Assembly: GCF_026210795.1 (NCBI RefSeq)
Contig: NC_089459.1
Coordinates: forward strand, 2,356,001 to 2,420,000
Direction: 5' to 3'
DNA: 64,000 nucleotides
From: Rhizophagus irregularis
Taxonomy: Eukaryota; Glomeromycota; Glomeromycetes; Glomerales; Glomeraceae
The notes below the pieces were generated by a model. The model did not search any database, had not been told where the DNA came from, and saw nothing but the letters and a program-made list of their open reading frames with translations. Shown in pieces: positions 5,657 to 57,025 of the stretch (its first letter is position 1; every line of letters begins with the position of its first letter). The position numbers were made by a program, and so were the translations under genes.

Positions 5657-5660
5657 TATA

Positions 5661-13596: not shown

Positions 13597-13721
13597 ACAA
13601 TAAGGAGACGAGGTGAAAGAAGAAAACTTTGAAAATTTTATAAGAAAAAAAAATCCTTTTTTCACTCGTTGTAAAAAAAAAAACATTAAGAAATAAATTG
13701 TTCAGCTTGAATTTCTGCATT

Positions 13722-32100: not shown

Positions 32101-34700
32101 AATTAATAGACGGAGAATAAAAAAGAAATAAAAAAAAGATAAACAATTATTAAACGAGAAATCTTATAAAATATGTCGTACTTTAAATTTACTGGTGAAT
32201 GGTTTACATAAGTAGCAATTTTGAACTAAGGTTTATTACATGATCTCGAAATCTATAAAGAGAGAATATTATGATGATCGGTTACAAATAAATTTGTATA
32301 CATTAATTAACTATGAAGTATGAAGTATGAAGTTTTTCGTTCTTTGTTTTGAATATATAAATAGTAATTCATAGATAAAAGTGTTTCTTATACATTGCTA
32401 TTTTTCACTAACAAACTTTTTATTTGTTTTGTTTTGCAAATTTTTTAAATAATTATCCGGCCGTTAATGATAAATTTGGAAAGAACTCATTTTTTGATGA
32501 TTCAAATTATTCTTAGAACACAAGATTATTTTTAAGATGAATTTGTACTTTTTCGTGTATATATATATATATATATATATCAAAATATATTAATATATTT
32601 TCGAAAAAAAAATCCGTTATAAACTTTGATTGTTATCCATATTAAAACATTTTTCTTTTTAGATTTTTTTTTACCTTTCCTAATTGGGTACTTTATATAT
32701 TTCAAATTAGGATAATAAAATTTTTGATGATTCTTATCAAATTACTATAATAGTAAATAGAAAACACCAATTTTGGGTTTTGTAAGATCACGTGACGACG
32801 AACGACCTGTCAACTGGGATTATTTTTAAACTTCGACTTACCCGAGCTTACCCCTTACGCTTTTTTTATCCCTTGTGTAAAAAAAAAACATTTTTGGCGT
32901 TTATTAATGCGGAATTTAAACTCCATTTAGTAAATAACGAATGAGAAAATGTAAGTTTTTTTTTTACATTAATTGTTATCAATTATTTATATCGCGTTTT
33001 AGATTAGAAATAAAACGCACGCAAATGATGCAATAATTTTCAAACTACGCTTTTTTTATTGATGTTGTGTTTCCTTCTAATTTCAATGAAAATATATAAA
33101 ATTTGGAAATTAAACAAAGGGAATCGGGAATAGTACTTTTGTACAATATATCTTTCTAAAAAAAAAAGTTTAATTACGATAAGTTTAGTAAATACGGATG
33201 TCCCCGAATATTCCGAAGATTAAATATTGATATATATAGAAACCAACTAATTCTTTTAATATTGTTTCATTATTCTCATTATTCTTCTTTGAAAATTAAT
33301 CTTTCCGGAAACCGTTTAAATTCTATAATAATAATAATAACACAACAAACTGTAGAAATTCCATTAATTCCATCCCTTTCTTTTTTAAAATATTCAATTT
33401 ACTAAATATGTAAATTAGTTTCGTCATATAACTTGACAGATTTCAATAAGGGGGTAAAATATTATACACTATGACTATATAAAGTCATGATGGCAAAATC
33501 TTAAAAAATATGATACGGTTACAACATATTATTCACACTTGAATCATGCATAATTGCATTCATTCATTTATTCGAAAAATGGTATGCATTCATTGATTAT
33601 TTAGTTTTTATAGTGTAATCGGAAGAAGAAAAAATGGTAGTGTTAATTAAATTGCTTTTCCTTCTACGCGTTATAAAATGTGTATCTAATTAGACCTAAT
33701 ATGGATTACAAATTTTTTATTAATAAAGATTTGGAAAAAACGAAAGGTTGTTAAGCTTTTCCAATAAAATCATTTCATTATTCGTTCTAATTCACTATTT
33801 TAGTAGTAATTATTGGAAGAAGACCGGAAAATCCGCTAAAAGTGGAACAATTCCGAACTCCATATTAGGTTTAATTCATTTATTTTCTGCGCCGATTCTC
33901 ATAATAAATAAAATGCAAAGTAATTATTTCTATATGAAAAAAAAAATGAATGTTAAAGTTCATTCATTCAAAAATAAAAAATAAGAAAAATAAAATAATA
34001 ATAAATAAATAAATAAATAAAACTGAGCATCTATTGGTACTTCTGTACACTATCTTGCCACGCATTTTAATAGTTATATACTAATATGGGTTATAAATAA
34101 AGAAAAAAAGAAAATGGGTAAATAAAAAAAAATAAATAAATAAAATTAATAAATAAATAAATAAGTGAGTAAATAAATAAATAAATAAATGAAAAAAAAA
34201 AAAATTTATTAACAACCTGTTTAAATAATTACAAAAATTATCTTATACATTATCAGATTTTTAAAGTATACCAATTATTTGATCATTCATTATTAGTATT
34301 ACGCGTATTATTAAGAATTTGTAATAGGTGGCTCGATTTTCCGCGGCACCAACCGAGCAACCGAATTCAAATCCCGATTTGGATCCTTAAAAAAAAAACG
34401 CGTTTATTTAATAATGGATAATATAAAAAAAAATATATAAACTATTGTAAAAATTTATTTATAAATAGTGCATGTAACAAGAATGATTTTTTTTTTTCTC
34501 TACGTTCGTATCATATATTCCTATTTCATTTATTATCTTATAATTTCACTACTTTAAACCCACCATAACTATATTCATTCTCTGTGAAACAAACCAAACC
34601 ACCGAGGAAAAAAATTCCTACATAAAATATCCTAAGAAAATTATTATACCCGTCCCCTTTTTTCTTAGAACAAATCATTATTTTCGCGTCAACTTCCTCC
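29110..34700. other. 5.6-kb gene-free intergenic region
   Basis: No gene supported. It holds short tracts of a degenerate repeat (aaatgtaagaaatccaaaat, 30330-30395), an atagcatatat repeat (31320-31355), a (ta)n run near 32560-32580, an E-box agatcacgtgac (32785-32796) and (aaat)n runs at 34000-34190. Open frames of 60-78 codons are AT-rich chance frames. Confidence 0.45.
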
Positions 34701-34702
34701 AT

Positions 34703-35497
34703 ATGACGAATTCAATTCAAGAACCAAAACGAAATGTTCGTAATACCAATACTAAAAAGAAGTCATCAAAACAAAATGGTAAAAGGAAATCATCATCAAA
34801 ACGTAAAGATCCTGAGATTACATTAAATTTACCATTTCCTCCCAATGTTAAACTTGAAAAATTTTTTCCTTCCAAATATACTGTAAGCTTGAGAACTCTT
34901 AATGCATTCATCATTTATAGAAAAGTTGTCAGTGCTGAGATCAAGAAAAATAAGATTACTTTATGTTGGAGTAAAATTTCAACAATTGCATCAAATAAGT
35001 GGAAGCTTGAAGATGCTGAAGTTAAACAACATTATAGAGATCTTGCTGAAAAAACTAAAACCTTGTATAGATCTAAACATTTGTTTTATGTTCATCAAGG
35101 AAAGAACGCTGCCAGTTCTGTAATGCTTCAAGATAATGGGGAAACAACCGATAATACCCCAAAAACTTTTACTTTTGTATATTCGGAATATGAAAAAAAT
35201 CTTTCAAATGATTCAGGTGTTGAACAACAAAAAAACGCATTTAATGAACAAATTGAGGGTACTTTAGAAACTCCTGAAATTTCTAATGTCGATCCTCATG
35301 TTTTGAATGAAAGTGATCAAACTATCATTCCACCTTCCAACACCGGGTTTAATCTTGAACATAACTTCTTCAATTTTGTTAATATGGTTGGCTTACCAAT
35401 TACTACATTTTTGCATGATGACAGATCATTTCCCCTATTTCAACTTGAAATGGCAAATAATAATATGCCCGAATTCGATGATCATAGATTTATTTAA
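34703..35497 (+). CDS. HMG-box (MATA_HMG-type) DNA-binding protein
   Basis: Single exon, 264 residues from ATG at 34703. A basic Lys/Ser-rich N-terminus (10-36) probably gives nuclear localisation. The HMG box lies at about 63-128: LRTLNAFIIYRKVVSAEIKK, CWSKISTIASNKWKLE and VKQHYRDLAEKTKTLYR, with the N-A-F-I-x-Y-R helix 1 signature and Trp 89 and 100. The C-terminal half is acidic and Asn-rich, a possible activation region. It differs from the 21490-22269 protein outside the box, so they are not a recent duplicate. Likely a sequence-specific minor-groove transcription factor; targets unknown. The 5' flank (34560-34700) is less AT-rich and has a C-rich patch (cccgtcccc at 34649), fitting a promoter. 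Confidence 0.85.
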   Translation: MTNSIQEPKRNVRNTNTKKKSSKQNGKRKSSSKRKDPEITLNLPFPPNVKLEKFFPSKYTVSLRTLNAFIIYRKVVSAEIKKNKITLCWSKISTIASNKWKLEDAEVKQHYRDLAEKTKTLYRSKHLFYVHQGKNAASSVMLQDNGETTDNTPKTFTFVYSEYEKNLSNDSGVEQQKNAFNEQIEGTLETPEISNVDPHVLNESDQTIIPPSNTGFNLEHNFFNFVNMVGLPITTFLHDDRSFPLFQLEMANNNMPEFDDHRFI

Positions 35498-38864: not shown

Positions 38865-40187
38865 CTAGATCCATTTAATTTGTTGAAAAAATTCCCAAAG
38901 CTTACTTGCTTTATTTACATCAATTCTTAATAATTTTTGTGCATCACTCTTACGAAATGGTAAATTCTTTTTAATATATCTTCTCGCTGAAGAAATTAAA
39001 ATATATTTTGATGTTAAATATTGTACAGGAGTTAAACGTAAGATGGAAGTCACGTGAGCTTCTTTTGGATGTAAGAGAGGATAATGAGTTAAATGAGAAA
39101 TGTTAAGTGGTTGACCCTTCCATTTTATATTTATATTAGCATTATCTAAACAAGTAGTTTCAATATTTAAATCTTTGATGTTTTTTTTGAGTTCGTTGAT
39201 TTCCATTGTAGGTGGATTTGGGAAAAGAACTGATTTCGTTTCAGTAAATGTTGTCGAAGTAACATTTAATGTGGACTTTAATAATCCACGGTCTTGCATA
39301 ACTCTAGCCAAACTATTACTTTTTCTCTTTCTTTCAGAAAATGGTTTATCATAACTTCGAATTTTAGAAATACTAGTCTTTTGTACTTTTGAAAAATTAG
39401 TGTGTGAATTCATTGGAAAATTAGAATTAATAGGTGAATTAATTGGTGAATTTAATAAATAATTTATCTTCATTGGGGAAGACGAATCATCAGATGATTC
39501 CATATCAATTTTTAAGTTTGGTGCAATTTTTTGATACTGTTTTACGCGGGAACAAAGGGTTGGTCCTACAATATGAACTTTATTATCAAAATTAGGTTCA
39601 ATCTCTGATGCGTTTGATTTGGCCGTAGTTTGCATTGTTGTTTTTTCTGGTGTTAATGTTGTTCCATCATTGATCAAGCATGTGGAAATTGTGGAAATTT
39701 TTGCATGTATATCACCATTTGTGCCTCCCACACATTGAGGCACAGCCATCGTCATTTTATGAATTGATGAAGATCTTTCAAATGGTATATTATTATTATA
39801 TTGATTACTTTCTGAGCAAGTTAAATCTTGAGTAGGTTCAGATAATAACATTTTAATTGATAGACGTGAACTTTGATTAAAATAATCCGGTTGTGAATTA
39901 TGATTAAAATTTGAATAATTATTATTTGTCGGGGAATAAATTTGGGATATCGGTTTAGGTGTTTGATGCAAAAAATTAAAAGATGAATTATTTAAAGATA
40001 AAGAATCTTCAAAATTGTTCCTTCGTTTTATTACGAAATCATCATTTGGTGAAGTTGGTGTTGATATAGGCGGAGAAGGTGTTTGCGACAATAAACTACT
40101 ACTATAATTATAATTATAATTATAATTATCATAATTATAATTATTATAGTTATCGTAGTTATAAAATTTATTGTATTGCGAGTGCAT
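38865..40187 (-). CDS. SWIRM-domain chromatin protein (paralogue 1)
   Basis: Single exon, 440 residues from ATG at 40187 (MHSQYNKFY). The frame stays open 73 codons further upstream, but that part is a run of Ile, Tyr and Leu from AT-rich UTR and is left out. The N-terminus is a Tyr/Asn repeat (9-28); the middle is Ser/Asn/Pro-rich. ERKRKSNSLARVMQDRGLL starts at about 285 and is near-identical in the two paralogues. The C-terminal 86 residues are a SWIRM domain (KWKGQPLNIS, LRLTPVQYL, LLRIDVNKASKLWEFF, ending IKWI). Fungal relatives (yeast Fun19, fission yeast Laf1/Laf2) act with Rpd3-type histone deacetylase; SWIRM folds bind DNA or nucleosomes. It lacks the RKNPYP...APSK block of the other two, so it has diverged most. 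Confidence 0.83.
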   Translation of the reverse strand: MHSQYNKFYNYDNYNNYNYDNYNYNYNYSSSLLSQTPSPPISTPTSPNDDFVIKRRNNFEDSLSLNNSSFNFLHQTPKPISQIYSPTNNNYSNFNHNSQPDYFNQSSRLSIKMLLSEPTQDLTCSESNQYNNNIPFERSSSIHKMTMAVPQCVGGTNGDIHAKISTISTCLINDGTTLTPEKTTMQTTAKSNASEIEPNFDNKVHIVGPTLCSRVKQYQKIAPNLKIDMESSDDSSSPMKINYLLNSPINSPINSNFPMNSHTNFSKVQKTSISKIRSYDKPFSERKRKSNSLARVMQDRGLLKSTLNVTSTTFTETKSVLFPNPPTMEINELKKNIKDLNIETTCLDNANINIKWKGQPLNISHLTHYPLLHPKEAHVTSILRLTPVQYLTSKYILISSARRYIKKNLPFRKSDAQKLLRIDVNKASKLWEFFQQIKWI

Positions 40188-41895
40188 TACTTTCAAATAA
40201 ATACTAATAAATACAATAAATACAATAAATATATAAATCAAAACGAAAAGAAGTAAAAATATATATATATATATATATAATATCTTGTGTGTAATAAATA
40301 AATATATATATAACGATATATACTGTAACGAAACGATATATAGGTATATTACTTTAATTTTATTCAAGGACTTTTTTTTTAAAAAGGCTCGTTGACGAAA
40401 ATTCAAAAAAAGAGATAGTTCTTTCTTTCTTTTTTTATTTTTTTTTAAAAAAAAAGAAAAAAAAGTTCAAATAAGATTTTTTTTTTTTTTCAGCCGATCA
40501 TAAAAAAAACAAATGAAGATATGTCGTATTTATATTGTCCCTGCATATGAATAAAAAAAAAAAAATTTTTTTTTTGCACGCGATAATTCATTTTAAGGTA
40601 CTGATTTCTTTATTATTCGGAGATTTGAAATGACGAATTCAATTATAAGATGTATGTTTATCAATACGGTAGTCATAAACGGTAAAAGGGTAACAATGTG
40701 AAGTATTTTATTTTTTACTCTTTATTGAAATAAAGAAATGCGAATCACTCCCGATCATGACATCGTAAGTTACTCTACATTTTTATTTATTTATTTACTT
40801 ATTTTTTATTTTATTTAATTTATTGATTTTCATTCTCTCCTTATCCCTTTTTTTTTTGAATGTTGAATATTTTTTTAATTTTAATCGAATTTTAAAATGA
40901 ATAAATATTTGTACATTAACTTTCGTCATTTTTATATTACTGAATGTATAATTTTATGACATTATAAAATTTATTACTACTTTCGGAACTTTTTTTTATT
41001 TTATGAAAATAAAATAATTTTTTAACGGACCAATTAAAAAATTTTACATCAAATTCACGTTGATAAAAAAATTCAACTTTTTTAAATTATAAATAACTTT
41101 TTTTTTTTCCCTTGTGAATGGTATAAATAAACGTGTTTGCGTAATACAAAATTATTAAAGTTTAAGGAAGATCATCATTGATTGGATAACTCGAGTCACA
41201 TGAACTGTAGCAATGGTAAATAGGATCACTAATCATTTTTAAAATTATTCGTTAACATTGTTAATATTATTACGCGAAACGATAAATTTGTTTAATTCAA
41301 AAATATCAATTGTTCTTTTCGCCCCTTCCACGATTTATAATTTGTTTTCTGCATGTTTAACTATGAATAGTAAAAAAAGAATAAATATTTTTATTAAACA
41401 AAATAATAATAATATGATATTTTTACGATTTTTCCTTTAGTTTACTTATATTTACTTACCAACATCGAAAGAGGATGATAATCAATTCAAATTATAAATG
41501 ATTATATAATAATAATAAATTTTTATTTTTATAATTCATAAATTTTTTTACCTCGTTCCTCTCCTTTTTTTTTTTAAAAAAAAAAGACAATATTAAATAT
41601 TAATTTAAGGAATTTTTCCTTTGTTATATTGAAATAGTTAGAGTGTTTGTTTCAAGCGACATATTATGATCTGAGTAATAAATACATAACTTTATTTATA
41701 TACATAATACTATATATATATATGTATATATAGATAGATAGATTATATTTATGCAAGAAAAAAAGAGTGATTATTTTAATCCCTGACAAATAAATTCATG
41801 CTTGTTTACCATTTAATGTAAATAATGTTATTAATTGTATATATACAGTATCTTCGAAAAATAGATCTTTTGAATTTTTTTTTTAAAAAAAAATT

Positions 41896-41926
<31 letters not shown>

Positions 41927-44210
41927 AATAAATCGTTCATTGTGAAAGGCTTTGTTTGAAATTGATTAAATTGATTGGATCAAATTTATCAAATTTAGGA
42001 AAAAAAAATAATAATTTTTGTTTGGTAGTTTCCTGTGCAGCAAGGATAAATAATATAATGACATATTACTTCAAAAACAGTGTTATGATCAAATTTTTAG
42101 AAATCTTTTTTTAAAGTATAATAAATAAATAAATAAATAAATAAAATAACACGTGAGCTGGAAATCCCCCGACTTTGCCGGTCACTTCTGTCAATAAAAG
42201 TCACGCGGGTACCAACTAATCATCAAAGAAATAAAACATGTGATTTTAATAGTGCCTAATTTATACTTAATTTAGAAAAATATTACAAATATTTCCCGAT
42301 AGATTTTTTATATATATATAATATATTTAATAAATTTTTGTTTGTCACAAAAATATTCAATCATTATCTTCAAAAATCTCTTTTTTTTTTTCTATTAATA
42401 AAATGATTTTTTTTTTACACGTACATTTACTACCGTGTGTAAATTACACAACTTGTAAACCAAGTTTACATGTGATGAGAACATCAAAAACGCCCTTTGG
42501 ATTAAACAAAAAGAAAATATTAAACAAATCAGGTATAGATATCATTCAACAATTAGTAATCTTTTATTCTTTATTGTAAAACCGGTTCAAATAAAGTGTA
42601 CATATAAAAGCCGTATCACACACGAGTTTCGTTTTTCGTTTTTTTTAATATTGTTCATTTTTTTACAACGTATGACTATTCTGCAAAAATTAAAGTTATT
42701 ATTATATTTCAAAACCCCAATAATATATGATTGAGTTTAAAAAAAAAAAACAATCAGTTTTAGATTTTTTAACGGAAATTTCCGATAAACTGACAAAATG
42801 GCGTTTATTATCGTAACTTATTTAATAACGCGTTCGTTATTTCTATTATTTACTCATTCATTTTAATATCAAATTTTTCAATCAAAAAAAATTCAAAAAA
42901 GGTTTCTTTTTAAAATTTAAAAAGAGTTCAAACATAATTTCGCGTTCCTTTTATTTGTAAACTTGCAGTTTATTAGTTTATTCTTAACCATAAAATCAAT
43001 GATCACAATAGATCATTGTAAAATTTAATTTCTCTATATATAATTTATTATTAAAGATTCATTGACTTTATTTATTTTTTTGCTTGATCGACACACAAAA
43101 GAATTATTGTGGAGTGATATATATAAATATAGTTTTTTATTGCACTACTGCACTAAAGCACTAAAGCACTTACGAGCTAGAAAATGTAATAAAAATCTTT
43201 GGGTTTGATCAGGTGTTTATTTAAGAATCTTCTCAATTCTTCTTTAGAAGTAAAGAACGAACTTACTTGTATTCCAAATATATATTTATTTAAAAAAAAT
43301 TTTTTTGTTATCTGATGAATTCTGATGAATTCAATTTGAAAATATAATATATATATATACTATGTATGTTATGTAATGTATACATGTATGTATGTATATA
43401 TATGTATATATATATATATATATATATAGATACTTTATATAGTTTCAGCCGGCATACATATACACATGAAAAATCGGTCATTTTGAATGACCAAGAGATC
43501 TATCTGATAATTATTAACTTGAATAACGTAGTATAAATTTTATTTGTTGTACAGTACCAATAATAAAGTTTTAGAAAAAAAAAAAAATTGTGTTAAAATA
43601 ATTTTTAATATCTTCATTCATTCACACTATCATAATTTTTACACATGGTCCATATTTTTTTGTTTGAAATGATTTTAAGTTTACACATCTTCTTATCTGA
43701 CGTGTTACACGCTTAAATGTCTAACTCAATGTAAAAATTATATATATCACACCCCTGAATAGATTTGATCTAAAATGTTTAAAGTGTTAAAAAATTAAGT
43801 TGTGAAATGTCTACATATAAAGGAAAAAGTTTGATACAGGTTACAAAAAAAAACGCCCATGTCTCCACGATTATAGGTGCTTTTAACCGGGGTTTATGAA
43901 AAAAAAAGTTAATTAACTATAATTAAAGATGACTTACATGTAACATAAATCTAAAATAGGAAAAAAAAACCCAGAGATTACCGGAGTAAATCGGAGTTAA
44001 AAATAAAATAAAATAAATATAAAATAATAAAATAATAAAATAAAATTTAAATAAAATAAAATAAGATAAATAAATTAGTCATTTAAAAAAGATCATTCAC
44101 ATATAATATGTATTTTTTATTGGATTTGTAATATCAATAAAAGTGCGGCTTCGGAAAAACTTATTAGGAATTTAAAAAGGGGTGTTTTTTAAATTTTTTT
44201 TTTTTTAAAT
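40188..44210. other. gene-free intergenic region downstream of a minus-strand promoter
   Basis: Starts with the 5' UTR of the first SWIRM gene, carrying (at)n and T-run tracts. Then AT-rich sequence, (ta)n at 41890-41925 and 43380-43430, and E-box-like cacgtg at 42151. No gene supported. Confidence 0.4.
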
Positions 44211-44229
44211 TCATGATGATCATTGGCGT

Positions 44230-44510
44230 AATTGAATTGCTTCCCTTAAAAAAAAAACACAAGTGTTTTTAACAACATCTGATGATCTAGACCTAACTAT
44301 TAATTGGTCAACTAAATTAATCTGTCAAATTTATCAATTTCAATTAGAGAACGTTAAAGAAAACGCTCATATTACAACATCTGATGTTGTAAATGATTGT
44401 GAAACAACATACAAGTATTAATTTACCAGGTACGACGAATAAAATTAGAATTTATAATAGTAAACAAATTAGCATTAGCGTATTCGGTAGAAAGCCTGAT
44501 AATATTTAGA
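44230..44510 (+). pseudogene. frameshifted coding relic
   Basis: The plus strand reads VFLTTSDDLDLTINWSTKLI, CQIYQFQLENVKENAHITTS, DVVNDCETTYKY and then, after a one-base shift, NLPGTTNKIRIYNSKQISIS and VFGRKPDNI. Both halves are clearly protein-like in an AT-rich background and continue each other. The reading frame has no ATG at its start. I recall similar blocks in repeated Rhizophagus proteins but cannot name the family. Confidence 0.4.
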
Positions 44511-44639
44511 TCATCCCCAAAGTATTGTAAGTATTGTACTATATATATATAATATATATATATAATATTACCTTGTATATATATATATAATATATAATAT
44601 ATTACCATTTTCTCAAATTATAATAAGGTTATAAGATGA

Positions 44640-45610
44640 TTTATCCGGTCCAAAAGATACATGATACATCTAATCCAACTTGATTTAACCACGAACTTTT
44701 TATTAAAAAATAAAAAAATTGCTTAGAATTACCCGTCAATAATGTTTATAATAATTTAAAAAAATTCTAAATTTGGAAATATATAGGTAATTTGTGCATT
44801 TTTATATGGTTTTGTATAACATTAGACCTGCAAAATTTTTTAACCAATATGGCTCGGAAAAATATATCGGACAATTTTTTGCTTTATTTGTTCATAATAC
44901 TTTTTTTACTATCATCACCAGGAATGTCGACGAACCTTTTTGATAACTCAAATATTTTTAGTAATCTTTTTAATTATTTGTTTTCTTTATTTCCAACAAA
45001 TTATGAACACATTGGTGACAATTTATTATTATCTGGATGATTATAAATATCTCATATATCTAAACAAGTTCATTTTGCAAATCAAATACTTAATTTTGTG
45101 GATTGTTTATTATTAAATTTCTTTAAAAAGAAGTACTTGCTTCGGTTAATCCCGCAAAATCAAATATTGATATGATGCATAAGATCGTCGGTCTACAGAA
45201 TATAAAAGTACTAGATATACCGCAATTTTCCGTAGTTTCAAAAGCGAAGAGGAGAATTCCGCGGAATCTTTTACGGACATCTGCGTATTCGATTTAATAA
45301 TAAGGTCGGACAAAGTCTTTTTTAAGAAGATATTGTATAAAATGTTCCGAATGTTTGTCGTAAAAAGAATTGAAACTTTTTTTTTATAAACGAAAAAAAA
45401 AAATAACAAGTAATTAACTCCCGAAAAATTTATTATTTGTATATTATAACCTGTTACACAATATAAATATATATATTTTTTTTTTGTTTCCATAATATCT
45501 TTGGTGGACCTCGTCCAAAAATTTATGGGATCTTTACTTTTAATGGATGAAATGAAGTGGGATGATATTAAATTTAAACAATCCCATGTGATCTTTTGTA
45601 ACATAAATAA
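44640..45610. other. uncertain ORFs, possible gene
   Basis: Two unsupported frames: 44792-45040 plus (82 residues, hydrophobic) and 45146-45604 minus (152 residues, MLQKITWDCLNLISSHFISS). The minus frame is unusually long for this base composition and its ends look protein-like, but its centre is a poly-A/T translation (YLLFFFFVYKKK), which argues against one intact gene. Could be two exons or a decayed gene. Confidence 0.2.
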
Positions 45611-46974
45611 ATTATAAAGTTTTGATTTATATGCACAGACAATTAGTTTTTTCTGGTAGAATAAATATCACGCCATAATTTATTATTATATTTTAATTCC
45701 TTTTGTTCTTTTACTATACATACTCTTTTTTTTTTTTTTACCACTTTATTTAAACAATCGGAAAATCCTGAAAATCCTTTTTTTACTTTTTTTTTAAAAA
45801 ATTTTTACAGAAATTTACCGGTTATGAATTAGTGAAAGGAAAAGATTGAAATTTACTGTTATAGGAAAATTTTTGTTTAAAATTTCCGGGACAGATAAAA
45901 GTCAATACGTCATTTAGATCTTATATTTATGTTAAGACATATGAAATTATATACATTTATAGTTAAAACGCGTAAATATTTTACCCATAAGAGAATGGTA
46001 AGAAAGAATTTAAAAATGTATAACCTTCGATAGTTCGATTAGGAATTTAATTTAAAATCTGGATTTAGAATTTTGTACTGATTATTGAAAAGCCTTATGA
46101 TGGCATGATCGATTTTATGGTTAAATGTGGCTTTTTTATATAGAAATTACTTGGCATTTTTGTTTAATCATGAGTCAATTGAGTCATGAGAGTCATGACA
46201 AAGAAAAAAAAGTGATAATTAAGAAATTATATGTAATAAAAGTACTAAAAGGAGAAAAAAAACCGGAAAAAACCGAAATGTAAGAAAATTTCAATTTTTA
46301 ATACATAGGAATGTTATTACTTTTTATTCACGTATTCATATTACTCACATGGCAAAATTATTAATTAATCACCCACATTGTATGATAAAAATCTATTCTA
46401 AAGAGAGACAATTATATATAATAAACGCATTACACTGCATTAACAACTTTTCCCCATTCATCATTATTTAAGTAGGCTTAAAAAAATACGCTTGGGAAAA
46501 AAAAATAAATAAAAACAAATAAAGTATCTCTTTTGATTTTCAATATGGTTTGACAAATTTTTTTTATGAGACAGATGTTTTGGAATATATGAATTTCTTT
46601 GATTTCTTGGGGCAAAAAATCCTTACAAGGTTAATCGGCGTAAATAAAAAGATTATAATTGTTATTTCGTAATTTTTTAAGTCTCTTACATTACATGGTC
46701 TGATAACGCCTTATTTCTTTATAAGTAATAATTTGATCAATTGAATTTGGAAAAAATCCTTTTCTTCCTTGTTATATTTGCTACTTTGTGTTTATGTTAA
46801 TGACGCAGTGGCTGATTATTTTTTATGTGGAATTTCAACGATAAATTTGTACGACTAAAAAAAATTTTCTTTTACATCATTTTACTCTTACACTTGCATC
46901 TACGGTAGGAAAGAAATTTTTTTTATTACGTACATGAAAATATTTTAAAACTCGGAGAAAAAAAAAATTGATGC

Positions 46975-47037
46975 GGTTTCAGATGAGAATGACCAAAACC
47001 GTTTTATTACATATTTTTTTTTTTTTATTATTATTAC

Positions 47038-47080
<43 letters not shown>

Positions 47081-47165
47081 TTATTTTACTTTTTTTATTT
47101 TATTTTTATTTTATTTTTTTATTTTATTATTTTATAAAAATTCAAAAAAAAATAAAATAAAAATA
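46975..47165. repeat. (tta)n microsatellite and T/A-rich low-complexity tract
   Basis: About 20 tta units at 47020-47080 followed by (attttattt)n. The open frame here is a repeat translation. Confidence 0.8.
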
Positions 47166-47371
47166 AAAATAAAATACAATAAAAATGCTTAAAAAAAAAA
47201 AAAAAAAAAAAATTTCTTTAAAAGATACAACAATAAATTTAAAATAATTTAATTTGTATTTACATTAGTTTTTTCCTTTAGAATATAAATTTTACAAACA
47301 AAAAAAAATTTTTTTTTTTTTTTTTTAAATGACCAGTATATATTATAAACCTAAATTTATCACAGTAGTAC

Positions 47372-47515
47372 ATCCCCGAATATGTTGTTGTTACAGTCAA
47401 AAAAAACAATTCGGGCAGGGCCTTCTCCAGCTTCTTTATGAATTACTGTAAGTTCACCCATTTGTAAATGATTTAGAATTTTCCATTGTCTATATAAACT
47501 TGGCCCAACAGTTTA
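47372..47515 (-). pseudogene. coding relic of an unrecognised protein
   Basis: Minus-strand frame of about 48 codons: VGPSLYRQWKILNHLQMGEL, TVIHKEAGEGPARIVFFDC, NNNIFGDVLL, then a stop. A stop (TAA) interrupts it just upstream of VGPS. Its codon quality and GC content stand out from the flanks, and the absence of a start and of further exons suggests a relic. Could be a last exon of a gene I cannot assemble. Confidence 0.35.
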
Positions 47516-47549
47516 GCCGTTCGTATGAGCCTTTTTTTTTTTTATATTA

Positions 47550-48218
47550 TTACATATTTCAAATTTATAATTTATATGTATATATAAAGTACATTATTTA
47601 TATAAAATATATATTATTATAATTATAAATAAGAAGAAAAAAAAAAATATTAAAAATATTTAAAAATATTTTAAATATTTTTTAACTTGAAGCTTTTTTA
47701 TTACTATATGCTTATTATATTTCAGACAAATTATAAATACACAATAAAAAAGGAATATAATACATACCGGCAAATTTACCATTTTCATGCATATATTAGT
47801 ATAAAAAAGCGATCAAGGTTTTAAAATTAAACATACGACTAAAAATTTTTAAATTACTGATAAATAATAATAAAACTCCGTGATGCTCCCAAATTGGCTA
47901 GTCGGATCAAAACTAAAACTCTCTAATCAAGTGTGACACTAAATTTTATACAAAACAGAACTCGTTGCAAATATAAATAAGGATTGTTCCTCAAAAAAAA
48001 AATATCAATCTCTCTAAAAAAAAAAAAAAAAAATTTAATTCATTAAATTTAATGAATTAATTTTTTTTGACATTTCGTCATTTTTTTAATCTCACTAGAT
48101 ACTCGTGATTTTTTTTTTTCCTTTAGCCTTTAAAAAAGTCTCAAAAGTTCAACACTCGGTTGTTAAAATATTATCTTATAAATATCGTTCTCTCTAAAAA
48201 AAAAAAAAAAGAAAAAAA

Positions 48219-48255
<37 letters not shown>

Positions 48256-48466
48256 AAATAACAATAAATATAAAATACCTTCTTTCTTTCTTTCTTTAAG
48301 AGAAACTTTTTTTTTTTTTTATTCCTCGTTAACAAATAGTTTTTGTCGTTTAATAGCATACATACAGTCTATAATCCATAATCCATTATTCATTCTCTTT
48401 TTTTTTTTCGTTTTATAACCTGTTAAAAAAAAAAATAAATAAAACAAAATATATAAAGTCTACACA
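47550..48466. other. intergenic, 5' flank of the second SWIRM gene
   Basis: Long A/T tracts, a perfect palindrome aattcattaaatttaatgaatt at about 48037-48058 (22 bp; hairpin potential), (at)n at 48222-48250, and a ttctttct repeat at 48282-48300. Probably promoter and 5' UTR. Confidence 0.4.
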
Positions 48467-49807
48467 ATGTATCCTCAGATGAGACACTATACCATTTATA
48501 CTGGAGAACAAAGATATTCGCCTGCTCCAGTCTCTCCTCCACCTTCACCACCAAAGTCTGACAGCATCTGGCCAACAATGAAAGGTAACGAACCTTATCC
48601 TTACAACAACTCCAAGGAAACTTTACACAAGTCCAATGTGGTTCATCCTTCGACACCAAACTTGAATTATGGCCCTTATCCCTACAATTCTTCTAGAGCG
48701 ATATCCCATTCAAATCACGTGAAACAAAATTATTATGTTGATCACATGAAAACGATTGAAAGTTGGAGGCAACATTCGATGATAAACAACGATATTAATG
48801 ATGATAATAAAGAAGAAGTTACCGAAATTTTACAAACTGAAACCAAAAAGTTATCTAGGATGAGCATAGATTTTATGTTGGATAATTCATGTGATGAATA
48901 TGAAAATTTATCATCATCATCATCATCATCTACAACACCTGAATTTGGTAAGGAAATTGATCGTAGGGTTTATGCTGGTAGAAAACGAAGATGTCGTAAA
49001 AATCCTTATCCAATGAGAGCACCATCTAAAGATGCTCCAGGAATTAATCTTAAGGTAGATGTTTATACTCCAGTTATGAAAGATCCTGCTGCAATCTTAC
49101 GCAGCAATGACACTTCTGCCGCTACGTCACCTACTGATTCAGTAGATTCCCGTCAATTTTCTAAAAACCAAATGTCATCAACAACATCCGTTCCACAATT
49201 CTCACCCATTTCTTTGGTTGAATCCAACAATGAATCAGATAGGAAGTCAAACGTTTCCTTAAAGATTAAGGAGAAATCATCGGGAAGAAGACGTCATCAC
49301 AAAGAAGCTAGAGTGAAACGTTCTGGTGTCATCAAACCTGAACGAAAGAGAAAGGGAAATAGTTTGGCCAGGGTAATGACAGATAGAGGACTTTTGGAAT
49401 CGATTTTTAATACTGATATCACTTCAACTGACATCAAATCGGTTAGAATACCTCCCCCACCACCAATGCGACATGATGAATTATTAAGTGTCATCAAAGA
49501 ATTGAATATAGATCACAGTATCTTGGATAATTATACTCCAGATATCACTTGGAAAGGACAACCTCTTAATATCGCTCATTTACCTCATTATAGTGAACTA
49601 CATGAGATTGAAGCAAAAGTAGTTTCAATATTACGCCTTACTCCAGTACAATATTTAACTGGAAAGCATACACTTGTTTCTGCTGCTAGAAGATATGTCC
49701 AAAGGGCCTTACCATTCAAGAAAAGTGATGCACAGAAACTTTTGCGCATCGATGTAAATAAAGCAAGTAAGCTTTGGGAATTCTTTCGTCAAGTCAAATG
49801 GATTTAA
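48467..49807 (+). CDS. SWIRM-domain chromatin protein (paralogue 2)
   Basis: Single exon, 446 residues. N-terminus MYPQMRHYTIYTGEQR, then Pro/Ser- and Asn-rich segments with two EPYPYNNS/GPYPYNSS copies (42-49, 69-76). A basic conserved block CRKNPYPMRAPSKDAPGINL (176-195) continues to VDVYTPVMKDP; ERKRKGNSLARVMTDRGLL starts at 292, a Pro run at 329-333, and the SWIRM domain fills 361-446 (TWKGQPLNI, LRLTPVQYL, LLRIDVNKASKLWEFF, ending VKWI). Probable role is recruiting or positioning a histone deacetylase or similar complex on chromatin, by analogy with Fun19/Laf1. It ends exactly at the domain, as do its paralogues. Closest to the gene at 55862-57025. Confidence 0.87.
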   Translation: MYPQMRHYTIYTGEQRYSPAPVSPPPSPPKSDSIWPTMKGNEPYPYNNSKETLHKSNVVHPSTPNLNYGPYPYNSSRAISHSNHVKQNYYVDHMKTIESWRQHSMINNDINDDNKEEVTEILQTETKKLSRMSIDFMLDNSCDEYENLSSSSSSSTTPEFGKEIDRRVYAGRKRRCRKNPYPMRAPSKDAPGINLKVDVYTPVMKDPAAILRSNDTSAATSPTDSVDSRQFSKNQMSSTTSVPQFSPISLVESNNESDRKSNVSLKIKEKSSGRRRHHKEARVKRSGVIKPERKRKGNSLARVMTDRGLLESIFNTDITSTDIKSVRIPPPPPMRHDELLSVIKELNIDHSILDNYTPDITWKGQPLNIAHLPHYSELHEIEAKVVSILRLTPVQYLTGKHTLVSAARRYVQRALPFKKSDAQKLLRIDVNKASKLWEFFRQVKWI

Positions 49808-50600
49808 AGGTGACAATGATATCATTGTTATAGAACATCTTTATTTATTATGGATTGATAATTATTGGCAAAATCTCAAACAAAAAATTTTATAAATATG
49901 CTTATAAATACAATGAGTCGTTCCCATTTATTATTATTGTTTTTTTTTTTCAAAGAAACTGAATTTCATTATATTATTTGTAAATAATTTTTTTTTATTG
50001 CATAAATTTTAGATTTTCTTTCTTTTTTTTTCTTTCTTGATCATTTTTTTTTTATAAATTTTATTTTGTGAATAGATCTTTTTTTTTTTTTCTGTTACAA
50101 ACGTAAACGTTTTACACAATTTTAAACGTTTATTTTCCCCTTTTTTTTTCCTTACCCAAATGCATTTTTATGTTTTCAATAACTTTTGTAAATACGAACG
50201 AAATTTCAACGGCTGTAATCGCGTAACTAATTGTAATTCGTGGGCAAACATATGCGTATAAATATTTTAAATTAATATAATTAACACGACTATTAAAATA
50301 GATTGATTAGAAAAAAAATTCGCCTTAACGATTTAATTTCGAAAACTTTCATCAATACGCTAAACTTCGATTTTAATAATAGTATGATTAAGATTAAGTA
50401 ATTTATTTCTTTTTTTTTTTCGTTAAAAAGATAGTAATTTACTTTGTCAAAAAAAAACAAAAACAACAACAAAACAAACAAAATGGTTATTCTATGGAAT
50501 CTCAATTTTTTCAAAAAAATAATAAAGTAATTTTTTTTTTTAAAAAAAAAATAATTATTATAATTTCTCTTAAAGAAGTTAAAGAAGCGAGTATTGCTAA
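49808..50600. other. 3' flank of paralogue 2, T-rich
   Basis: tataaatatgctta at 49891-49904 matches a site in the 3' flank of the third SWIRM gene. T tracts at 49934-50090. No gene. Confidence 0.4.
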
Positions 50601-50619
50601 GCGAGCGTTTCTAAATATT

Positions 50620-51185
50620 GCTATTTTCCTTTAAAGAGACTTGTAAATATTGTTAAAGAACCTTGTAAATATTGATAAAGAGCCTTTGTAAATATTGTTA
50701 AAGAACCTTGTAAATATTGTTAAAGAGCCTTGCAAATATTGTTAAAGAACCTTGTAAATATTGTTAAAGAGCCTTGTAAATATTGTTTCTTTTGCTATCT
50801 TCCTTTAAAGAGCCTGATAAATATTGCTGTTTTCCTTTAAAGAGCCAGTAAATATTTGTTTCTTTAAAGAGCCTGATAAATATTGCTATTTTCCTTTAAA
50901 GAGCCGGTAAATATTTGTTTCTTTAAAGAGACTGGTAAATATTGCTATTTTTCTTTAAAGTGCTTGGCAAATATTGCTATTTTCCTTTAAAGAGCCGGTA
51001 AAGAGCCCGGTAAATATTGTTAAATGTTTCCCTGATCGATAGATACTGTTAACGTTACTCTTAACGTTACTCTTGGCAGCATATCCCTGATCGATAGTTT
51101 TACTCTTGGCAAAATATTGTTCTGATCGAATACTGTTAATGTTACTCTTGGCAAAATATTTTGTTCTGATCAATAAATGTTCCCC
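50620..51185. repeat. composite minisatellite (22-bp unit and variants)
   Basis: Bases 50635-50790 are about seven tandem copies of a 22-bp unit, accttgtaaatattgttaaa plus ga, with single substitutions (g/a, t/c). Then about 230 bp of a longer variant, ctttaaagagccggtaaata plus ttgctattttc. From 51020 a third variant follows, gttactcttggcaaaatatt plus gttctgatcga. The core ..aaatattg.. is common to all three. Confidence 0.8.
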
Positions 51186-51189
51186 TAAC

Positions 51190-51275
51190 TGAACTGATAG
51201 ATACCATAGATATCATATAGATACAATAGTTACAATAGTTACATAGTTACAATAGTTACAACTTACAATAGATAC
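51190..51275. repeat. short gataca/agttacaat repeat
   Basis: Irregular tandem of atagataccatagat-like and agttacaat units following the minisatellite. No coding signal. Confidence 0.5.
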
Positions 51276-53030
51276 CATCAAAAATTTCGAATTCAAAAAG
51301 ATTTATTAACCTTAATTAAAAATAAGAATAAGTTTTGAATGGTTATACACTTTGATATATTTCCTTAAAGATAATAATCATTCGAGCTGCGTCGTTCACA
51401 TGACAATTGGCTTCGGTTCCATAAAAGTACAATGATATAAGGTATAAAATAAAATTCTCCGATTATTATATCATTTCACCTAATTATAAACATGTATTTA
51501 TCACATTTTCGGACATTTGTCTTTTTTTATAAATGTCTTTGCATTCAACTCGCATTTTTTAATTTTAAGAAGCATTTTTTAAATTATTTTATTTATTTAT
51601 ATAATGTCGGCCATGCATTTTGCATTAATGAAATTTAAACATCAACCCTAAAAAAAGTATTTTAACATTTCATCTTTATAATAATAATAAAAAAATTAAG
51701 ATTTTCAAAGTCAAATTTTTTCTTAAATTTCTTTTTTTGGTTTAAAGTGTTTTTTATTGTAATAATAATAATAATATTTTTTTTTTTGTGGTGTTGTTCC
51801 AAGTAAACATAATATGTAAAATTTATAAAATGTGGAACACTTATCTTGCATATACTTTTTTTATGAAACAAAAAAATATTGGTTTATAATCGATATTTAA
51901 TATAACTCAAAAAAAAAATATTATTAATAATTGTTAATTGGAAATATAAAAAATCCTTCTGGGCCAGGTTTGTGTTTATTTTTATTTATTTTACGCCCGA
52001 TTTGATATATATAATTGGACAAATGATACTTTGCATGATTTTTAAGTTTTTATTTTATTTTATTTTTTTTTTGTTAAAAATAGAAAAATGTTTTTTTTTT
52101 TTTGAAAGGCTTATTAGGAAATGTTAATTTAATTACAATATTGGTCAAAACAACTAAATATTTCACAACAATCATTGGCCTTTAAGTAAACAAAAAGTAA
52201 AAATAAATATATATGCGAAAATATACGAAATATGTGAAATACGCGTATAAAAAGGAAATGCATTAAATTAAACCCGGATCAAGCGAACGTTTACCGTAAT
52301 TTCCATATGTCAGACATTGGATCTTCATTTTATTTATTGCATTACAGTACATTTTTGAACCCTGCGGGATTTCGTTGATCTCAACCAAACACTATTTTTA
52401 AACCTTTATTTTTTTTCATACACCACAGAAAAAAAAAAAATAATTTAATTACTTTATACTGTAAGTAGATGATCAAACTATCTCTGAAAACAAATGCTTT
52501 TTTTTTTTAAAGTTTTTGTAAATCTTTTTTTAAAAAAATCACAATAAAAGTCATATTGCATATATGTTTGAACGAACGGGGACCGGCATATTACCGGTAA
52601 TGCATATCAATGTCTCACTAAAATAAAAAGGTACATTCGTGATTTGATATTAATTAATCTCAAAATTTTTGCATTACTTACGCAAGTTTAACCTATAAAT
52701 TGTTTTCTTTGCGTCACATTCACAATAATTAATTGCCATTACTTAATTGATTTTTATAATGCAACATTCCAATTAGAAAGTTTCATTTACTTGAACGGGT
52801 AATATTTTTTTCTCGAAAAAAAAAAAAAATTTTAATATGCAAATCATTTCTTCTGTTATCTACTTGTACATTGAGAAGAACATTTATCTTATATAAAATG
52901 GGTTAACTGGGAGGATGTGCATGAATGTGAAATGTGATAAATAAAATGCATAAAAAAAAATTACAATTAACTAAATTCATTTATTTCGAACCAATTAATT
53001 CTTTCTCTTTTTTTCTTTTATCATTTATTT
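51276..53030. other. gene-free intergenic region
   Basis: AT-rich with scattered homopolymers. No gene supported; frames up to 69 codons are low-complexity. Confidence 0.4.
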
Positions 53031-53036
53031 GGATCT

Positions 53037-53215
53037 TTACATATTTCGTATTTTACGTATTTTACGTATTTTACATATTTTACGTATTTTACGTATTTTA
53101 CATATTTTATGTATTTTACGTATTTCGTATTTTACATATTTTTACGTATTTTATGTATTTTACGTATTTCGTATTTTTTTACTTATTTTACATATTTACA
53201 TATATTTACGTGTAA
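53037..53215. repeat. 10-bp tandem repeat tacgtatttt
   Basis: About 17 copies of a decamer tacgtatttt with tacatatttt and tatgtatttt variants. All three plus frames remain open through it because the 10-bp unit lacks stops, giving repetitive VFYVFY/ILRILR translations that are not proteins. Confidence 0.85.
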
Positions 53216-53778
53216 AAATATAAAATTATCATTCTTACTTATAAATGTTTATCAAAGTCATTTTCAATATATAAATACATATTTTTTCATAACAAAACGT
53301 GAAATTTTTATGCAATTTCTACTACATTCAGCCAAAAGGAAAATAAATATTTAAATTAAAAAACAAGTCCTTGCATAAATTCAATCAAGATTACCGAAAT
53401 ACAATTAGTCAATAAAATAAGATTTAAGGTATTTAAGATGCATGAGACTTGCTTAATTTAATATAAATATCAACGAATTTAAATGAATGAAATTTAATAC
53501 CGTATTATAATCAGTCCAACGCGTTGTTTCCATATGCAAAAGATTTATAAACAATCCGTAATTAGTTTTCTTTCTAGCAAATTGAACGCGACATTATTTT
53601 TTTTTTCATGAATTTATTTGGTAAGTAATATAAATAATATAACGAACATAATCAGGGGAAGAATTCAGGTAAACCAAGGTTTCGAAATAATTTTTATGCA
53701 TAACGTTAAAAAAAAAAAAAAAAAAAAAAAGATCTACGTTGTAAAACTCCGAAAATACATCAAATAATCACGTCATAA

Positions 53779-53790
53779 GATCACGTGATC
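53779..53790. promoter_or_regulatory. 12-bp palindrome gatcacgtgatc with an E-box core
   Basis: Perfect palindrome around cacgtg, the core bound by fungal bHLH factors such as Cbf1 and Pho4. Its position about 2 kb from the nearest gene start leaves its role open. Confidence 0.35.
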
Positions 53791-53799
53791 AATAAAGTT

Positions 53800-54145
53800 T
53801 ATGATACAATCGGGGATATGAATTGCCTAATCAGGATAAACATATATCCGCAAAGTTTTACAAATCAATTTGTCACGCCACCTTAGGAACTCACTTATTC
53901 TCTACGATGGTTTGTTTCTCTTGTTAATAAAAATAATTAGACGGACACTACCGTTCCCACGGTTCACGGTTTATTCCGAAAATTTGTATTTAATTCACTT
54001 AAAAAGAAGATAATTATATGTGAATACTTTTCGCAAATAAAGTAATGAAGATTAGCAACAATTACAGGAGCGGGTCTGATCATCTTTTTTCTTTCACTAA
54101 TTAGGTTGGTTCTTTTAAAGAAACTTTTGTTAATAAATAATAATA

Positions 54146-54176
<31 letters not shown>

Positions 54177-55861
54177 TAATAAAATAATAATAATAATAAT
54201 AAAATGTAAAGCTGTAACAAGTTTAAAATGTAACAAAGTTTCATATCGTAAAAAAAAAAAAAAAATAATTTTATAAATAAAATAAAATAAAATAAATGAA
54301 AAAATGGGATGATCTGGCAAAATTTTTGTTGGGGAAATTAACGCGCCGAAAATAAACAAAATTGGTCATAAGTTCCAATAATAAATATAAACAAAGGAAA
54401 TATATTATATGTATTATATTGATTATATGTCGCAGTTAATGACTGCGCTAATTATATCATTATCTAAAGGTTAAAAATGTTATTATTTCCAATTCCGAAT
54501 TGGTAATTGTTTATAATAATAAAAAAAAAAAAATTCTATTTTCATTGACTGGAATTTATGGAATAAAAAAAGCGCATTGAAAAAATCGACTGCGTAATGT
54601 ATATCCTCATACCAAAACGGCAAATTTTTTATTCGAATGTTTTAAAATTTTTTTTTAAATTATTTTGGGAATTATTATAAAAAAAAAAAATTGGTTCTCT
54701 TTGACCTTTTTCTTTCGAAAAGAACAAAAAAAAATGCTTTTATTCGGTTAGATTGGGCAGGGTAACTTTTTACGCCATTTCTACTTTTGTTTCTATGGAA
54801 AAATTATAAATTTCTTATTAATTCGAAACGGTATTTGCCGGTTTTTCATGGTTTTTCATTGTGAGTCAATGGGAATTTGACAAATAATTCGTAAATTTCC
54901 GCAGTAGAGAATCAAATCTCCATATCTTACCAATTCATTGACGAATCTTCTAGTTAAATGATTTTTAGCTCGGTGTAATTCAAAAAAAAAAATTTTTTTT
55001 TTATATTATAATATAGAATTCCTTTTAAAGATATAAATATTTCAAAAATGAACTTTTTTTTTTTTTTCGAAATGTCACAAACTTCTCACACCGAATTTAT
55101 TATTCACATGTATGTTATGTGAATGGCGATCTTAATGTATTTTTATTATAGACATATAAATAATTTAAATAATTTTAGGTATTTTATATAAAAAAATTTT
55201 TTTATTATTATTTTAAATAGAAAAATCTTTTTTTAATAATCCAATTTATATTACAATTAAAATAAAATATAAAAAAAAAAATAATAATTGCGTTCAAATA
55301 TAAATAAAGCAGATGAAATGATTTTTTTTTTAAAGAGAATTCGGAAAGCAAAAAAAAAAAAAAAAAAAGACAAAAAATCTTGACTCATATAAAAAAAATA
55401 ATTTGTCATTTTCCGCATTAATTTAATTTATTTACAATAAATATTATAATATATTACACACATATTATATATATTCATATATTATTATAATAATAATAAT
55501 ATACTATATACACTGTATTATATATTGTATTACATATATACAAAGTTAAAAAAAAAAATTTTTTTTTCTTGGCATATTGAATTTTAAAGTAATAATCCAT
55601 ATTACAATAGAAATTTCGTAATTTCTTAAAATAAACATTGATTATTTCTTTTTTAATTTAATCGGATATAAATTATCATAACTCCGAAATTTCCCTCATA
55701 CAATCATATATAAACAACGCGCAAAGGTACCATTCTTTCTTGTCATAAAAAACCTAAAAAAAAAAAAAAAAATTTTTTTTTCGTTTTTTACTAAAAAAAA
55801 AAAATAAATAAAACAACCCACTAAAAAAATAATAATTTTTTATTTTTTATCAAAAGAAAGA
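53800..55861. other. 5' flank of the third SWIRM gene
   Basis: Low complexity: (taa)n at 54138-54200, A/T runs at 55260-55560. The last 70 bp before the start carry aaaaataaataaaaca, also seen just upstream of the second SWIRM gene. No gene seen. Confidence 0.4.
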
Positions 55862-57025
55862 ATGTCCTCAAATTTATTAATGCAAGTTCCTATTACTACT
55901 ACTAAGGGCGCCAAATTTGCGCCACCACTTTCACCACCTTTATCTCCAGATTCAAATATTTTTAAAAATTCGGAATCATCATCACCGTCATCATCATCAT
56001 CATCATCATTGTCTAATATTATAAATGAAGTTGAACATGTCGAGATTATTTCCAATAAACCAAAACCAAAAAATAAATATAGAATGAGACTTTGTGATGC
56101 TCCTCCGGAATTACTGGAAATGATAAAACGTTCAGAAATGAAGAATGAAAAGTCTTTACCGGAAAAATCTATCACTTCTAATACCGTTGTAAAGACCGTT
56201 TCAACATCAACTATAACAAATAATTCAAGTTTTCATAAAATTATTACCTCTGATGAAAAAAGGCACAGATTTAGAAAGAATCCTTATCCAAAGAAAGCTC
56301 CTTCTAAATCATCTCCTGGGATCACCCTTCAAGTGGATGTTTACACGACACTTAAAGAAGATCCAAAAGCTTTATTGAGAAGAAGTGATTCATCAACAAC
56401 ATCCTCAATTTCATCTAGTAGTTCCTTTTTATCATCATTCAATGATAGTTCATCAGGTACAGAAAGTTCTCCACCACAATCACCACAACGTTCTTCATCA
56501 AAGAAACAAATCACTAAAACTAAAACAAAAACGAAACGAACAAAACCAATTATATCTGAAAGAAAACGTAAAGGTAACAGTCTCGCTAGAGTTATGGCAG
56601 ATCGTGGTCTCTTAGAATCAACCTTAACTCCTATAGTTGTAGCAGGAGAAATTAAACCAATTCGTATACCACCACCTCCACCAATGCAATTTGATGAATT
56701 AATGAAAAATATTGAACAACTAAATCTTGATTTAACTGTACTTCAACGTATAAACCCAAAAATCAGTTGGAAAGGACAACCTTTATCCATCTTGCATTTA
56801 CCTCATTATAATTCATTACATTCAAAAGAAGCTCACGTAGCTTCAACTTTAAGACTTACTCCTGTTCAATATTTAACAGCCAAACACACATTAATTTCAT
56901 CTGCAAGGAGGTATGTACAAAAATCACTTCCGTTCCGTAAGAGTGATGCACAGAAACTTCTTAGAATAGATGTTAATAAAGCAAGTAAACTCTGGGAATT
57001 TTTTATGCAAGTAAAATGGATTTAA
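55862..57025 (+). CDS. SWIRM-domain chromatin protein (paralogue 3)
   Basis: Single exon, 387 residues from ATG at 55862 (MSSNLLMQVP). Pro/Ser-rich N-terminus with a Ser run (39-50). Basic conserved block FRKNPYPKKAPSKSSPGITL (137-156) continuing VDVYTTLKEDPKALL, a Ser/Pro-rich linker with a basic patch (KTKTKTKRTK, about 222-231), ERKRKGNSLARVMADRGLL at about 235, a Pro run, and the SWIRM domain at 302-387 (SWKGQPLSI, LRLTPVQYL, LLRIDVNKASKLWEFF, ending VKWI). About the same architecture as paralogue 2, shorter by 59 residues in the N-terminal half. Expected nuclear, chromatin-associated. Confidence 0.87.
   Translation: MSSNLLMQVPITTTKGAKFAPPLSPPLSPDSNIFKNSESSSPSSSSSSSLSNIINEVEHVEIISNKPKPKNKYRMRLCDAPPELLEMIKRSEMKNEKSLPEKSITSNTVVKTVSTSTITNNSSFHKIITSDEKRHRFRKNPYPKKAPSKSSPGITLQVDVYTTLKEDPKALLRRSDSSTTSSISSSSSFLSSFNDSSSGTESSPPQSPQRSSSKKQITKTKTKTKRTKPIISERKRKGNSLARVMADRGLLESTLTPIVVAGEIKPIRIPPPPPMQFDELMKNIEQLNLDLTVLQRINPKISWKGQPLSILHLPHYNSLHSKEAHVASTLRLTPVQYLTAKHTLISSARRYVQKSLPFRKSDAQKLLRIDVNKASKLWEFFMQVKWI

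Follow-up and report, generated by a model that had tools for sequence, protein, structure and literature searches.

A clustered and dispersed family of SWIRM-only genes in Rhizophagus irregularis, with a possible role as alternative Sin3-HDAC subunits

A family of genes whose products end in a SWIRM domain is found in the window analysed here, a stretch of 64,000 nucleotides from the fungus Rhizophagus irregularis (C31:2356001-2420000, in a genome of 146.7 Mb on 32 contigs with low G+C). The first-pass annotation of this DNA described a local cluster of three such paralogues. The local family is real and of a known kind; however, it is older and larger than first described. The cluster comprises four genes across about 30 kb, on strands - + + +, the fourth of which starts 3.1 kb beyond the window edge, and the genome-wide total is nine open genes and ten partial or decayed loci. 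The cluster arose by old duplications, and its SWIRM domains are under purifying selection. The chances are judged about evenly balanced that this old tandem array encodes Fun19 / Laf1-Laf2-type proteins that serve as alternative flexible subunits of one large Sin3-histone deacetylase (HDAC) complex, with orthology and mechanism both putative.

The clustered genes and the wider family

The clustered genes (g1 to g4) and the SWIRM domains of the three within the window are as follows; positions are those of the window unless a contig (C) or locus (L) is named.

38865..40187, minus strand: gene 1, 440 residues, single exon, open reading frame (ORF), SWIRM-only; without KYRMR and RKNPYP blocks
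48467..49807, plus strand: gene 2, 446 residues, single exon, open ORF; RKNPYP block present, without KYRMR block
55862..57025, plus strand: gene 3, 387 residues, single exon, open ORF; all four N-terminal blocks present
C31:2423135-2424490 (= L009:3135-4490), plus strand: gene 4, 451 residues, C-terminal SWIRM
38868..39077 (genome C31:2394868-2395077), minus strand: SWIRM of gene 1, residues 371-440, Pfam E 7e-11
49592..49804, plus strand: SWIRM of gene 2, residues 376-446, Pfam E 6.3e-12
56807..57022, plus strand: SWIRM of gene 3, residues 316-387, Pfam E 1e-12, fold match

The stop codons of genes 1 and 3 end at positions 38865 and 57025. The open ORFs agree with the initial description of three single-exon genes in the order minus, plus, plus, each with a C-terminal SWIRM domain (Pfam E 7e-11 to 1e-12). 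The PF04433 scores of g1 to g4 are 42.7, 46.0, 48.5 and 50.2 bits, against a curated cut-off of 28.6, and the SWIRM helical fold is present; a whole-protein predicted structure of gene 3 had a mean pLDDT (predicted local distance difference test) of 41 and was not used. In a Pfam scan of the four cluster proteins, SWIRM lies at the extreme C-terminus and is the only recognised domain. The same scan found in them no ZZ or SANT domain (E up to 1), no amine oxidase or MPN domain, and no further Swi3-type Pfam domain. A C-terminal SWIRM domain without any other recognised domain defines the Fun19 / Laf1-Laf2 type.

Beyond the cluster, a Pfam scan of the genome returned 14 SWIRM matches, 11 of them of the cluster-gene type. 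The other three loci are read, from their sequences, as Swi3-like (C32), Ada2-like (C9:4333008-4333211) and MYSM1/LSD1-like (C26, divided as though an intron intervened). Genome searches with individual genes were made exon by exon, with the best candidates scored. With gene 3 as the query, 25 matches merged into 19 places, one of which is the Ada2-like locus and 18 of which are of the family type. Half of these are open genes with a whole SWIRM domain (the four cluster genes, C1a, C1b, C6, C18a and C18b) and half are partial or decayed (C1c, C1d, C1e, C1f, C6b, C12, C29, C1:7673172 and C1:7681886). Gene 2 as the query adds a truncated copy on C15, and C18a as the query brought no additional family member from the genome. 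Outside this genome, no relatives were confirmed among prokaryotic contigs (26 pattern hits) or viral contigs (81), and the searches brought up no sequence of Laf1, Laf2, Fun19 or YOR338W. The C15 copy (L040:5504-6025, C15:2005504-2006025) corresponds to the first codons of gene 2 and continues into unrelated sequence. Upstream of it (L040:3295-5503) are pieces like window positions 47167-48466, in the same order and with one doubled, and a single inverted piece is found at L040:2172-2250.

Divergence, N-terminal modules and descent

Over an 87-residue SWIRM region, identity is 76% for g1-g2, 80% for g1-g3, g1-g4 and g2-g3, 79% for g2-g4 and 93% for g3-g4. The domains had been called near-identical, which overstates the case: the window genes are 76-80% identical, and only g3-g4 reaches 93%. 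In all six cluster pairs the SWIRM coding sequences differ far more at synonymous sites (pS 0.62-0.71) than at nonsynonymous sites (pN 0.05-0.17; Nei-Gojobori counts). The corresponding dS of 1.3-2.2 is near saturation, so that dN/dS-type ratios are rough. Low SWIRM pN at near-saturated pS means that the alike ends reflect long protein-level selection rather than recent copying. Gene conversion as the source of the alike ends is rejected for most pairs, since the last 28 codons have a pS of 0.63-0.74 in five of the six; the g3-g4 pair, whose pS in those codons is 0.43, may have undergone a short, old conversion. Segmental duplication of the cluster together with its spacers is likewise rejected: apart from coding parts, the matches by blastn within 38000-64000 and against L009 (E 1e-8, dust on) are limited to a tandem repeat and a 42-base palindrome. 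The synonymous differences and the lack of mutual homology between the spacers both uphold the earlier view that the duplication is not very recent.

The N-terminal parts are under little constraint, with a pN of 0.37-0.55 among the cluster genes in a poor alignment. Residues S, T, P, N and Q make up 40-51% of the cluster proteins ahead of the ERKRK block. These halves have diverged strongly, as first described, although a serine/threonine-proline (S/T-P) motif is kept in all four N-termini. The S/T-P, RKxPYP and KYRMR blocks were assessed against 2000 residue shuffles for every comparison, and the counts are uncorrected for the number of comparisons.

39279..39335, minus strand: ERKRK block of gene 1, ERKRKSNSLARVMQDRGLL
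49340..49396, plus strand: ERKRK block of gene 2
56558..56614, plus strand: ERKRK block of gene 3
40047..40076, minus strand: S/T-P motif of gene 1, SPPISTPTSP; 1/2000 shuffles match its score against gene 3
48518..48553, plus strand: S/T-P motif of gene 2, SPAPVSPPPSPP; 20/2000 shuffles match its score against gene 3
55919..55948, plus strand: S/T-P motif of gene 3, APPLSPPLSP
48995..49102, plus strand: RKNPYP...VDVY block of gene 2; 0/2000 shuffles
56273..56380, plus strand: RKNPYP...VDVY block of gene 3
56075..56137, plus strand: KYRMR block of gene 3; common to g4, C1a, C6, C1b and C18a

The ERKRKxNSLARVMxDRGLL block occurs in all three window genes, as had been noted, and the S/T-P motif (PPxSPPLSP) is common to all four cluster genes (g4 against g3, 0/2000 shuffles). 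The RKxPYP block is present in g2, g3, g4, C18a and C18b (0/2000), is borderline in C1b (32/2000 with the g3 block) and was not found by the shuffle test in C1a or C6. Its absence from gene 1, already remarked on in the first-pass annotation, is confirmed by best alignments at chance level (1864/2000 shuffles for the g3 block and 846/2000 for the g2 block). The KYRMR block is present in g3, g4, C1a, C6, C1b and C18a (0/2000), and the same test did not find it in g1 (1928/2000), g2 (357/2000) or C18b (408/2000). One stretch of gene 1, SRLSIKMLLSE, resembles by eye a Sin3-binding helix; this identity is not claimed, and the gene 2 match is weak (121/2000).

Two trees describe the descent of the family. 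In the first (13 rows, 116 columns), the cluster genes group with C1a, C1b, C1c, C1d and C6 in a clade supported at 99/99, with C18a, C18b and C29 outside it; the Ada2-like row joins by a very long branch of 2.3-2.5 changes per column. The second, full-length tree (9 rows, 307 columns) has the same split at 100/99, and in it gene 3 has the shortest end branch (0.059). Because both trees set the cluster genes and the C1/C6 copies apart from the C18 genes as a single clade, they support the view that the SWIRM family expanded within this genome. The RKxPYP and KYRMR blocks look ancestral and separately lost, in a mosaic, since each occurs on either side of the deepest split. The placement of g4 differs, with g3 and the C1/C6 copies in the first tree (70/94) and with g1 and g2 in the full-length tree (89/93), and the trees neither establish nor reject a clade limited to the four cluster genes (p-AU 0.12 and 0.49).

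Upstream DNA was compared over 200 bp against 200 dinucleotide shuffles in 36 pairs, and the counts are uncorrected for that number. The gene 3 upstream region matches those of C1a, C6, C1b and gene 2 beyond all 200 shuffles. Among the six cluster pairs, none of the 200 shuffles reaches the g2-g3 match or the g1-g4 match, the latter being AT-rich and not trusted; the other four pairs give 26-175/200 (28/200 for g3-g4). The MSSNxLMQVP start of gene 3 also occurs in C1a and C6. Among the cluster genes, gene 3 is the likely source of the dispersed copies. The C1/C6 copies would be DNA-level duplicates of a gene-3-like member, including its proximal promoter, and many dispersed copies would have decayed since, in a birth-and-death process that began with an old tandem group. 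The C1a-C6 duplication is recent and less constrained (SWIRM dS 0.20, ratio 0.33). Retroposition is disfavoured as the route of dispersal, as five pieces of DNA, spread across about 4.3 kb and lying mainly upstream of the gene, are common to C1a and C6; gene-3-like upstream DNA is also carried by C1a, C6 and C1b. The single-exon coding parts are uninformative on this point because all open members are single-exon. The C1b copy is adjoined by complex local repeats (L014:2435-4062).

The genomic neighbourhood

That the segment holds no other supported gene, as first stated, agrees with the lack of a convincing Pfam match between or after the window genes; this check covered 61 of the 167 ORFs of at least 45 residues in 35500-64000, mostly the longer ones, and spliced small genes could escape it. 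The 61 ORFs matched four Pfam families, each with a single member, at a best E of 0.0009. In the window, neither Rfam at gathering scores nor a tRNA scan gave a match. After gene 4, the next downstream Pfam-matching ORFs, among those of at least 100 residues, are an MFE-2-type hydratase on the opposite strand (L009:7160-8149). No transposon was identified by genome matches in the spacers 40470-48440 and 49808-55807. The former has 130 genome matches (best 40 of 121 candidates), mostly short AT-rich repeats together with the group of C15 matches that lies ahead of gene 2. The latter has 54 (best 40 of 49 candidates), apart from itself mostly short, the best being 130 bases at 96% on C7. A tandem array of 22- to 32-base units, including TTTAAAGAGCC and TAAATATT, occupies 50631-51002 in the spacer that separates genes 2 and 3.

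HMG-box genes, which are not members of the family, lie on either side of the cluster.

21490..22311, minus strand: HMG-box ORF, PF00505 E 8e-08
34544..35497, plus strand: HMG-box ORF, PF00505 E 3.1e-11; its end is 3.4 kb from the gene 1 stop codon
L041:8267-9262, plus strand: HMG-box ORF beyond the window
L042:7408-8931, minus strand: HMG-box ORF beyond the window

Four HMG-box loci (C31 2377829, 2390892, 2438549 and 2448233) thus bracket the SWIRM genes. In a genome scan that scored the best 150 of 275 candidates, stretches of 70.6 kb with at least four HMG loci make up 0.2% of all stretches of that length; this span was picked after the hits were known. C31 as a whole has 14 of the 148 merged loci against 3.0 expected, HMG loci also group locally on other contigs, and the nearest HMG locus to the eight dispersed SWIRM copies checked is 41 kb to 1.7 Mb away. 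The association is a lead, because the scan scored part of the candidates, the span was set after the fact and HMG groups occur elsewhere.

Elsewhere in the window, a TOM13 (mitochondrial outer membrane) ORF lies at 19342-19938 on the minus strand (Pfam E 1.8e-20). At 13644-16341 on the plus strand are three consecutive long ORFs of 245, 168 and 390 residues, none with a Pfam match over cut-off, which may be exons of a single gene; the first and third are among four window ORFs that gave no match in NCBIfam. Positions 5660-5965 and 6417-6785 are tandem duplications with units of 164 and 190 bases, 86-87% alike.

Proposed function and known systems

According to excerpts of PMC10115800 and PMC2614481, Laf1 and Laf2 of fission yeast were found in the purified SIN3L deacetylase complex. 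Their predicted budding-yeast orthologues are YAL034C and YOR338W in the excerpt of PMC2614481, and that of PMC7218141 tabulates laf1, as "Clr6 L associated factor 1", with FUN19 and YOR338W. Sin3, Rxt3 and Sds3 have one matching locus each in the R. irregularis genome. A role as Sin3-HDAC subunits is favoured because the known fungal SWIRM-only proteins sit in the SIN3L complex and these three loci are present. Under this proposal, several interchangeable SWIRM subunits would serve one large Sin3-HDAC (Rpd3L/Clr6-L) complex. The SWIRM domain would form a constant part for docking or chromatin contact, and short linear motifs for different partners may reside in the variable N-terminal tails. 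Subunit choice would then direct deacetylation, with the repression that follows from it, to different gene sets or conditions. Were the copies indeed alternative subunits of a single HDAC complex, silencing would have diversified via a small flexible subunit and not via the enzyme or scaffold. A broader version is put forward tentatively and is rather unlikely in full: a single scaffold with an enlarged modular set of swappable subunits, in which the C-terminal dock is fixed and the KYRMR and RKxPYP targeting modules of the tails are lost in different combinations, would support combinatorial, lineage-specific silencing from a regulator-rich HMG-box neighbourhood. The open-access literature searched contained no paper on SWIRM in Rhizophagus, Glomeromycotina or Mucoromycota and none on SWIRM with FUN19; SWIRM with "arbuscular mycorrhizal" gave only PMC11712027, on plant transcription factors by its title.

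The genes may instead be ordinary old paralogues, comparable in number and place in most related fungi and so no expansion particular to this lineage, a historical account that is compatible with the functional readings and is considered somewhat unlikely. The age of the duplications by synonymous change agrees with it, but the recent C1a-C6 duplication does not. The earlier remark that fungi carry one or two such genes fits the two proteins reported each for S. pombe and S. cerevisiae in the excerpt of PMC2614481, for those two species only, as against nine open genes here.

Affinity with Ada2 suggests another role, in which SWIRM-only proteins would dock on SAGA, compete with or replace Ada2 and modulate Gcn5 recruitment. 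All PDB sequence matches are Ada2 SWIRM chains (2aqe E 2.2e-6, profile 1.4e-9), and g1 weakly matches the Ada2b C-terminal Pfam model (E 0.0084, under cut-off). Excerpts of PMC10226619 distinguish SWIRM roles, in histone-tail contact (LSD1), mononucleosome contact (Swi3) and tethering (Ada2), the last of which would suit such docking. The genome nevertheless has its own Ada2-like locus, so labelled from sequence and separated from the family by the very long branch, and the four cluster proteins are without ZZ or SANT, which leaves this role improbable.

Similarly doubtful is a role as stand-alone DNA-binding regulators, whose SWIRM helices would bind DNA and which would work together with the flanking HMG-box factors, whether within an HDAC complex or apart from one. 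SWIRM binding to chromosomal DNA is reportedly the topic of a 2005 study by Qian, going by its title. The bracketing HMG-box loci accord with such a partnership, but the reservations on the span, the scan, the HMG-rich contig, the groups elsewhere and the distant dispersed copies all count against it. A further point in its favour is that LSD1 homologues of Aspergillus and Neurospora contain a SWIRM domain as well as an HMG box (excerpt of PMC2442719). Decay of the cluster genes into functionless duplicates, like the ten partial or decayed loci, is disfavoured as very improbable, as each of the four ORFs runs uninterrupted for 387-451 codons and SWIRM combines a low pN with a high pS.

Ada2 has ZZ and SANT domains, and Swi3/Rsc8 carry an additional SANT part. 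Unlike Ada2, the cluster proteins have neither ZZ nor SANT by Pfam scan, and the Ada2-like locus on C9 is separate. Unlike Swi3/Rsc8/BAF155, which are not among the PDB matches at E up to 1, they have no SANT match, and a separate Swi3-like locus lies on C32. In contrast to LSD1 and MYSM1, they are without an amine oxidase or MPN domain. The fungal SWIRM proteins without another domain are Laf1, Laf2 and their budding-yeast orthologues, and in these Fun19/Laf-type yeast proteins SWIRM is C-terminal. The cluster proteins are likened to Laf1/Laf2 and Fun19/YOR338W by architecture and not by sequence: SWIRM is the sole recognised domain in each case, and multiple copies occur per genome, two in either yeast (excerpt of PMC2614481) but nine open genes, four of them clustered, in R. 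irregularis.

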